From Saliphagus infecundisoli (GTDB taxonomy: Archaea > Halobacteriota > Halobacteria > Halobacteriales > Natrialbaceae): 64,000 nucleotides of DNA. Shown one piece after another: positions 16,178 to 18,242 of this stretch. The notes under the pieces are model-generated. The model had not been told where the DNA came from, did no database searches, and was given only the letters and a program-made list of their open reading frames with translations. How positions within the stretch are numbered: position 1 is the first letter of the stretch; the number at the start of each line of letters is the position of its first letter. The stretch covers positions 1-64,000 of the forward strand of contig NZ_JAIWHV010000005.1 of assembly GCF_020177375.1 (NCBI RefSeq), written 5' to 3'. Made by a program: the position numbers and the translations under genes.

Positions 16178-16681
16178 ATGACCCTCTCGGAGGAAGCCAC
16201 GTCCCGCCTCGCCGACGTCGTCGAGCTCCAGCCGACGAAAAACAGTGAGCTCCAGGAACGGTGGGGGATGGAAAGCGGCAGCGAGGTCCACCAGTACCTT
16301 GAGGGCGAACTCGGCGACTACTACTTCCGGGACGACAACAGCCTGATCCGGGCGACGAGCGAGGCCGCAGAGCTCGTCGACGTCGAACCGGGAATCGACA
16401 GCGACCCCGACTCGGAGGGGCCGCCCTCGCGCATCCGAGTTCCGGAGCTCCAGGCCCGGATCGTGGAGGTGCTCGCCGGCCCCGACGAGCGATCCGAGAG
16501 CGTCGTTTCCGTGCTCCACAAGCTCCGGGAGGCCTACGACGTCGACCCGACGAGCGAGGAGGTCCGCGAGGGGCTCCAGGCACTCCGGCGCAAGGACGTC
16601 GTGGAGATCGAGTACCGGACCGTTCCGACGTTCCGACTCGCGGTCGAACGCGACGAGTTCGAGGTCTCCGTCGCCGACTAG
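16178..16681 (+). CDS. DUF5797 family protein
   Basis: A 167-residue acidic haloarchaeal protein. The opening segment (LSEEATSRLADVVELQPTKN) and the following ELQERWGMESGSEVHQYLE resemble a winged-helix domain, and a second helical domain spans about 90-150 (VVSVLHKLREAYDVDP). That suggests a DNA-associated regulator, but no function is known to me. It follows phoU by 35 nt and ends tail-to-tail, with a 4-nt overlap, with the DUF5787 gene. Confidence 0.78.
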   Translation: MTLSEEATSRLADVVELQPTKNSELQERWGMESGSEVHQYLEGELGDYYFRDDNSLIRATSEAAELVDVEPGIDSDPDSEGPPSRIRVPELQARIVEVLAGPDERSESVVSVLHKLREAYDVDPTSEEVREGLQALRRKDVVEIEYRTVPTFRLAVERDEFEVSVAD

Positions 16682-17718
16682 AGGTCCGGACGCTGCCGAC
16701 GCCGCCGCTCCTCCAACAGTCGCCGACAGCCCTTCCCCGGACCGCCCTCGATCGGCCAGCCCCGGCCGCGCCAGGCGGGGGGCTCGGGTTCGAAGCCCGG
16801 ACACGACCCCGAACACTCACTTGCGGTCTGTTCGCGCTCCTTTTCGGTGCAGTGTGGCCGGAACAGTTCCGACCCCGCTCCCGCAGGGCGCAACTCGAAG
16901 TGGCGGCAGTCGGGACGCATCGAGTCGACGTAGGATCGCCACCCCCGCTCGTAGGCGCGTTCGGCGATCTCGAGTCGCGTCTCTCCTTTCTCCTCGCCGG
17001 GAACGTACTCGAATCGGGCGGCGGAGGAATCGCCCCGGCCACCTGTCGGGCGTTCCTCGATTCGGGTCCCCGGCTCCGCGACCGACAGGGTTCGGGGATG
17101 CCAGGCGACCTCGGCCGACAGCTCCTCGGGATCGAGCGCGAGAATGCCGACCTGGACGGGGAGGTCCTCAAGCAGTGCGGGCTCGACGGACTCGCCCGTC
17201 TTCCGGGTCGCGACCCACACCTCGTCGGCGAGCGCCAGCGCGACGTCGTGTTCTAGCTGGTCGCCCAGGACGCGGGCCGCGCTCGCCTCGAGGTCGGGCT
17301 TGTTCTCGATGGCGATCACCCGACGGAGCCAGTCGGGGTAGGGCCACTTCCGGCGGATCTCGATGCGATTTCCCCGCTTTCGGGTCTCGAGGATCTCTCT
17401 ATCCGCGGCCCGATGGATCGCCTCGCGGACGTACCGCCAGGGGTAGCCCGGATGGGGGAGCGCCTCGCGGTAGTACGCCCACTCCCCGGGGGCGTGGCGG
17501 ACGACGTCGAGCAGGTCGCCGTCGAGCCGGTCGGGGCCGAACCGCGCGCGTTCGCGGAGCCCCTTGGGGTCGCACTCGAGGACGATCGTGTCCCACCGCC
17601 GCCGTTTGGTTCCGAGCTGGCGGGCGACCAGCACCGCCCCCCCTTTCAGGGGCTCCCACTCGCGTTCGGCCCACCGGCAGCTCCGGAGCTCGAAGCCGAA
17701 CTCGCTGGCTCCGTCCAT
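16678..17718 (-). CDS. DUF5787 protein, probable PD-(D/E)XK nuclease with Cys cluster
   Basis: A 346-residue protein of the haloarchaeal DUF5787 family. The middle reads like a restriction-endonuclease fold: PD at 128-129, then the strand RRVIAIENK with Glu138-x-Lys140, then GDQLEHDVALAL (Gln154) as in the RecB-family QxxxY motif, then ADEVWVATRK and LPVQVGILALD. Cys14 near the N-terminus and a C-terminal set (Cys271, 290, 302, 306, 331) recall the Fe-S arrangement of Cas4/AddB-type nucleases. The nuclease assignment is inference from motifs; substrate and partners are unknown. It lies 74 nt behind a Nudix gene on the same strand. ATG 17718 was chosen; the upstream frame runs into that gene. 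Confidence 0.75.
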   Translation of the reverse strand: MDGASEFGFELRSCRWAEREWEPLKGGAVLVARQLGTKRRRWDTIVLECDPKGLRERARFGPDRLDGDLLDVVRHAPGEWAYYREALPHPGYPWRYVREAIHRAADREILETRKRGNRIEIRRKWPYPDWLRRVIAIENKPDLEASAARVLGDQLEHDVALALADEVWVATRKTGESVEPALLEDLPVQVGILALDPEELSAEVAWHPRTLSVAEPGTRIEERPTGGRGDSSAARFEYVPGEEKGETRLEIAERAYERGWRSYVDSMRPDCRHFELRPAGAGSELFRPHCTEKEREQTASECSGSCPGFEPEPPAWRGRGWPIEGGPGKGCRRLLEERRRRQRPDL

Positions 17719-17792: not shown

Positions 17793-18242
17793 TTACTCCT
17801 CTTCGGTCTCCTCGTCGTCGGCCTCGTACTCGTCCAGAAAGTCGTCGGCCTGTTCTAAGATCTCGCGGGGGCCGTCCTGGGTGACGGTGTTGACCGCCTG
17901 GTCGTAGTCGCGCCACTGGAGGTCCCTGTGTTCGGCCGAGAGTTCGGCGCTCGCCTCGAAGGACTCGGCGACGAAGAGGTGGACGGTCTTGTGGATCGTC
18001 TTCCCGTTGGCCTGGAAGACGTAGTCGTAGTCCTCCCGGAAGCCGTCGAGTAGCCTGAACTGTTCGATGCCTGCTTCCTCCTTGACCTCGCGGATAGCCG
18101 TCTGCTGGAGTTCCTCCTGGCCCTCGACGCCGCCCTTGGGGAACTCCCAGTCCCCCGGGCGGCTCTTGAGGAGGAGGTACTCGCGCCGGCCCCGCGTATC
18201 CCGGTAGAGGATCGCGCCTGCGCTCGTCGCTTCGACTGCCAT
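17793..18242 (-). CDS. Nudix hydrolase, diadenosine-tetraphosphatase type
   Basis: A 149-residue Nudix enzyme. The Nudix box runs from Gly37 to Ile59 (GGVEG, then REVKEEAGI) and has the full GX5EX7REUXEEXGU pattern. The opening AGAILYRD and the segment KSRPGDWEFPKGG are typical of Ap4A hydrolases, which cleave dinucleoside polyphosphates that accumulate under stress. A TATA-like AACCGTTAAG lies upstream of the ATG (near 18262-18271, minus strand reversed). The C-terminus is highly acidic. Confidence 0.9.
   Translation of the reverse strand: MAVEATSAGAILYRDTRGRREYLLLKSRPGDWEFPKGGVEGQEELQQTAIREVKEEAGIEQFRLLDGFREDYDYVFQANGKTIHKTVHLFVAESFEASAELSAEHRDLQWRDYDQAVNTVTQDGPREILEQADDFLDEYEADDEETEEE

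Follow-up and report, generated by a model that had tools for sequence, protein, structure and literature searches.

DUF5787, a haloarchaeal protein family with predicted PD-(D/E)XK nuclease features and two ancient paralogues, one of them carrying a C-terminal PIP box

The DUF5787 gene and its chromosomal context

The window analysed here is a stretch of 64,000 nucleotides of Saliphagus infecundisoli (positions 1 to 64,000 of contig NZ_JAIWHV010000005.1). Its minus strand contains an intact open reading frame from 17718 to 16678 that encodes a protein of 346 amino acid residues, which belongs to group A of the DUF5787 family. The protein matches the Pfam entry PF19100 (DUF5787) with an E-value of 9.4e-122 and 406.5 bits, against a curated cut-off of 25, and DUF5787 was the sole significant family in searches of the window protein with Pfam and NCBIfam profiles. 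PF19100 is a Pfam entry without an assigned function, and a literature search found no mention of DUF5787. A preliminary description made from the DNA letters had proposed a RecB/Cas4-like nuclease at this locus. The open reading frame and the residues that it named (P128-D129, E138-N-K140, Q154 and the cysteines 14, 271, 290, 302, 306 and 331) were confirmed at their positions, and Cys49, which was missing from its list of cysteines, is also present in the protein.

A gene encoding a Nudix hydrolase of 149 residues (17793-18242, minus strand; PF00293, E-value 1.8e-18) lies upstream, separated by a gap of 74 bp. On the other side, a convergent gene encoding 167 residues, which we take to be DUF5797 (16178-16681, plus strand), overlaps the DUF5787 stop codon in the window by 4 nucleotides, and a related convergent small gene is found in 27 of the 33 sampled group A loci. 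The Nudix neighbour, already pointed out in the preliminary description, recurs in other group A loci: it is upstream and on the same strand in most of them (the cluster is found in 27 of 33 sampled loci), and in the 23 loci measured its strand is always that of DUF5787, with a spacing that ranges from overlap to approximately 1.5 kb. Since this spacing is variable, a shared operon is not general, and the Nudix-DUF5787 arrangement is a conserved synteny and not a tight operon.

Distribution of the two paralogues and the PIP box of group B

The same genome contains a second copy of DUF5787, here assigned to group B (G000:C76:44386-45348, corresponding to L002:1498-2466, plus strand), which is about 41% identical to the window gene; group B also exceeds the PF19100 curated cut-off, with 340 bits. 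Matches to group A were found in 289 of 292 Halobacteria genomes and matches to group B in 78 of the 79 genomes searched, and a profile built from both groups shows two loci in nearly all haloarchaea, Haloferax volcanii having the family as well. The same profile found none in approximately 165 other Halobacteriota genomes at an E-value of 0.001 or lower. In one other class, where homologues outside haloarchaea were sought, the only match was to the zinc knuckle of methionyl-tRNA synthetase, which was discarded as a chance match of cysteines. Searches of viral contigs and of phages found no DUF5787, and the one plasmid record containing it is the megaplasmid of Natronorubrum bangense. The three Halobacteria-class genomes without any DUF5787, of the 292 searched, are G021 (f5), G218 and G286 (f11), which are small (1.9-2.3 Mb); G021 and G218 are also devoid of NucS_C.

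In the phylogenetic tree, groups A and B each form one clade with 100/100 support, and the branch that separates them has a length of about 4 changes per column. Since each group is placed on one side of this single branch, the two universal haloarchaeal copies go back, as judged from the tree, to one ancient duplication. The sequence WR-x3-WPIEGGPG near the C-terminus (residues 316-328; window positions 16735-16773) is almost invariant in group A and absent from group B.

A PIP box of the form QxxLxx(F/W) is the C-terminal end of all 44 distinct group B proteins, typically as RRQSGLDRFG. The group B copy of the same genome ends in RRQSGLDRW, and the FEN1 of that genome ends in VQTGLDRWS. The background rate of the motif was 1 in 581 neighbouring genes, and group A termini show no PIP box, one chance match lying in another part of the L077 tail. 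The usual place of a PIP box is a protein terminus (PMC2737543); the consensus described for Haloferax is QxxLxxFx, present in PolB1, PolD, RFC-B, Fen1 and RNase H2, and PCNA is an interaction partner of some archaeal NucS and Hjc (PMC7776575). PCNA thus probably brings group B proteins to intermediates of replication or repair. A role in repair or replication appears well motivated for group B and less so for the window gene of group A, the PIP box making repair in particular the better supported of the two for B. Group B is flanked by genes whose identities were read by eye from their sequences: on one side those of eIF2gamma, a PIN protein and RNA polymerase E', and on the other, convergently oriented, those of an MBL-fold hydrolase and an AAA ATPase.

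Candidate active site, predicted fold and possible remote relatives

Conservation was analysed in an alignment of 131 group A and 44 group B sequences (175 in total). The residues E10, E18, R33, Q34, G36, R40, D43, Y127, W130, E138, N139, K140, P141, Q154 and D158 are invariant in all of them, and so is E6, apart from one gap. Among these, E10, D43, E138-x-K140 and Q154, each in 175/175, follow the motif order of PD-(D/E)XK nucleases. E10, the candidate motif-I Glu, is in helix alpha1 (17689-17691); D43 is the first residue of strand beta2 (residues 43-49; 17590-17592); E138-N139-K140, the ExK of motif III, is at the end of strand beta3 (residues 131-139; 17299-17307); and Q154, of motif IV, is in helix alpha2 (residues 152-160; 17257-17259). 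E138, K140 and Q154 had been put forward as catalytic-type residues before any alignment existed, and each proved to be invariant. The 'PD' motif that had been seen in P128-D129 fared otherwise, as D129 is replaced by E, A, N, S or Q in 24 of 130 group A and 10 of 44 group B sequences and was rejected as the motif-II Asp. The invariant Asp is D43, which we propose as the candidate motif-II metal ligand, on the strand preceding the inserted winged helix.

The predicted catalytic core (residues 1-214; 17077-17718) was modelled with AlphaFold2 from 81 sequences, with a pLDDT of 75.1 and a pTM of 0.60. The model runs as alpha1, beta1, beta2, winged-helix insert, beta3, alpha2, beta4, beta5 and beta6: a helix at residues 6-20 that contains E10, strands at 30-35 and 43-49, helices within 51-106, strands within 110-123, the strand at 131-139 that ends in ExK, helices within 145-160, and strands at 166-172, 189-196 and 201-206. 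This order appears to fit the alpha-beta-beta-beta-alpha-beta core of a PD-(D/E)XK fold, in which Asp starts beta2 and ExK is on beta3, with a winged helix between beta2 and beta3, the local pLDDT around ExK and Gln being 53-76. The inserted winged-helix domain (residues 51-123; 17350-17568) falls in the confident part of the model, with a pLDDT of 84-95 over residues 51-130. A full-length model from 55 sequences, with a pLDDT of 52.9, was unusable.

Foldseek searches of the core model against PDB found mostly winged-helix proteins (such as SmtB, SqrR, NolR and DsrD), with E-values of 0.05-0.35 and probabilities up to 0.99, because the winged helix is the part of the model that is confident. 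No PD-(D/E)XK structure was significant in this search, and the single restriction enzyme in the top 50 was OkrAI (E-value 0.31, probability 0.10). The protein ranked first, AF2093 of Archaeoglobus fulgidus (PDB: 2ph7; E-value 0.032 over 183 columns), was distrusted, with a TM of 0.25 and an rmsd of 16; it may be a distant relative with a different domain orientation, and a literature search found no paper on it. Sequence searches of PDB with the A, A+B and B profiles gave no usable match, and no proven PD-(D/E)XK nuclease was significant in the Pfam and PDB sequence profile searches.

Four cysteines of the C-terminal region are invariant in the 175 sequences, C271 (16906-16908), C290 (16849-16851) and the pair C302-x3-C306 (16801-16815), spaced 18/11/3. 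They form a self-contained predicted Cys4 metal site, for which Zn and Fe-S are equally possible. C14 (17677-17679), in helix alpha1 and after E10, is found in 131/131 group A and 42/44 group B sequences. It is replaced by Ala in the other two (L056 and L096), and these keep all four C-terminal cysteines and the candidate catalytic residues. C331, included in the cluster by the preliminary description, is not conserved, being a Cys in only 29 of 131 group A sequences and in none of group B. The alignment therefore upheld E138, K140 and four of the named cysteines as invariant, but not C14 or C331.

A localized match was found with sce7726-like proteins. The NCBIfam model sce7726 (NF033832) weakly matches 6 of 19 group B members over B residues 123-193, the ExK-Q-LPxxVG stretch, with 17.1 bits and an E-value of 0.0039 in the best case, far below the 70-bit cut-off of the model; against whole genomes, this profile picked out group B in four haloarchaea. 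The same stretch is matched by the PADLOC cll profile, the best of 4 members having an E-value of 5e-4, and a PADLOC cll search of 247 genomes found no member. When the A+B profile was aligned by hhalign with four sce7726-like proteins from non-halophilic Halobacteriota (L240:1051-1929, plus; L241:1255-2115, minus; L243:1051-1902, plus; L244:1060-1911, plus), the score was 29.1; the highest values were 23.7 in 200 column shuffles and 19.9 among 24 real decoy families, and ExK was paired with ExK, QL with QL and LPxxVG with LPSYVG. With profiles of A or of B alone, the scores did not exceed those of the shuffles.

From their place in the phylum, we take the host genomes of these proteins to be those of methanogens. 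The proteins show FDLAVY, an insert of about 120 residues, EFKSDHD, EQLPHY, WLPSYVGI and a PIP-like end, most of them having tails such as RQKTLF, KQSRLF or RQSTLKF. Their insert has a weak match to a CCCH zinc finger (E-value 0.13). A shorter relative in a methanogen genome (L239) contains a compact D-x12-E-x-K-x11-Q core. That sce7726 is a PD-(D/E)XK protein is our own reading of its motifs and is not taken from a database, and a literature search found no characterization of sce7726 itself. Alignment by hhalign with haloarchaeal NucS, whose motifs are D, ELK and then GQLRRYV, gave no match (probability 0.2). PD-(D/E)XK membership of DUF5787 is supported by the residues invariant in both paralogue groups, the secondary-structure order of the model and the localized sce7726-like match.

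Proposed function and relation to known nucleases

The most likely reading is that DUF5787 represents a new family of metal-dependent PD-(D/E)XK nucleases, specific to haloarchaea, with an inserted winged helix and a Cys4 tail, in which B would be tethered to PCNA and A, without a PIP box, would not; we hold this reading with good confidence. From the observed conservation, distribution, paralogy, PIP motif and synteny, and from the predicted secondary structure, we infer the fold of the core on both sides of the winged helix, the catalysis, the metal, the substrate and the pathway. The active site would consist of E10, D43, E138 and K140, with Q154, and phosphodiester bond hydrolysis there would depend on Mg2+ or Mn2+. 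The winged helix between beta2 and beta3 would bind nucleic acid beside this site, and the Cys4 site (C271, C290, C302 and C306), with Zn or an Fe-S cluster, may stabilize the tail or sense structure. In group B the PIP box would lead the protein to PCNA and so to replication or repair intermediates, and for group A, PIP-less and syntenic with Nudix, DNA would be a more likely target than RNA.

An RNA substrate for the same fold, with group A and its Nudix neighbour taking part in RNA turnover, is unlikely. It would suit the conserved synteny, the matches of the Nudix protein to RNA pyrophosphohydrolase models, among others, and the position of group B near the eIF2gamma and RNA polymerase E' genes; however, those matches are well below cut-off and unspecific, the distance to Nudix varies to about 1.5 kb, and in B the PIP box speaks for DNA. 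We give still less credit to an inactive DNA-binding scaffold of winged helix and Cys4, in which a PD-(D/E)XK-like shape is kept for structure only. The winged helix is indeed the only part that was confidently modelled and matched by Foldseek, but degenerate PD-(D/E)XK members usually lose the Lys or the Glu of ExK, and all the candidate catalytic residues of DUF5787 are kept in 175/175 sequences across an ancient duplication.

Just as improbable is a true RecB/Cas4/AddB-type nuclease with a 4Fe-4S cluster held by C14 and three C-terminal cysteines, as the preliminary description had suggested. The order E, D, ExK, Q and the near-constant C14 agree with it. In Cas4 and AddB, one N-terminal Cys precedes motif I and is followed by three close C-terminal cysteines, but in DUF5787 C14 comes after the helix-1 Glu, the invariant C-terminal cysteines are four and not three, their 18/11/3 spacing is unlike the close triplet, and the two group B proteins with Ala at position 14 keep all four. 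On these grounds the 1+3 layout was rejected. Furthermore, neither Cas4 nor PF12705 profiles matched the window protein, the PF12705 matches of the same genome being other genes, and no helicase or CRISPR partner was seen in the DUF5787 neighbourhood. From the preliminary proposal we thus retain the PD-(D/E)XK assignment, which the residues, their order and the sce7726-like match sustain, and not its RecB/Cas4/AddB part.

The proposed nuclease family would turn a universally conserved haloarchaeal protein of no known function into a concrete enzyme hypothesis, and the repair set of the genetic model archaeon Haloferax volcanii would gain a candidate nuclease that binds PCNA. NucS and other known candidates can be deleted in this species without a phenotype (PMC7776575), so the question arises whether nucleases are missing from the set or redundant. 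The nuclease-like features and the PIP-tagged ancient sister copy make both paralogues good candidates in the search for DNA-repair enzymes not yet described. More tentatively, and at somewhat less than even odds in our judgement, the two copies could be nucleases that haloarchaea universally have for repair or replication and that have not been described before, each built with a winged helix within the PD-(D/E)XK active-site fold and with a self-contained Cys4 site. One would then operate at the PCNA clamp, and its clamp-free partner might be linked to Nudix sanitation; the insertion at that point and the PIP tail, common to the presumed methanogen nucleases, would mark an old archaeal clamp-linked lineage. 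If true, a PD-(D/E)XK fold with a winged-helix insert and a Cys4 site would be of unusual construction.

Among known systems, the nuclease domains of Cas4, AddB and RecB (PF01930, PF12705) share with DUF5787 an ExK followed by Gln and a Cys-rich C-terminus; they differ in the number, order and spacing of the cysteines, and their profiles do not match. In sce7726 and its methanogen relatives (L240, L241, L243 and L244), ExK, Q-L and LPxxVG align residue by residue with those of DUF5787, and in the methanogen proteins, too, the motif-II Asp is separated from ExK by a long insert; unlike in DUF5787, no winged helix can be recognized in this insert, and no C-terminal Cys4 site was seen. Archaeal Hjc has the order Glu (in helix 1), Asp and ExK, with a short Glu-to-Asp spacing, in both of which it resembles DUF5787, and NucS/EndoMS, judged from haloarchaeal NucS, resembles it in the order of Asp, ExK and a Gln-bearing segment. 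DUF5787 is distinguished from both Hjc and NucS/EndoMS by the predicted winged helix between Asp and ExK and by its C-terminal Cys4 site.
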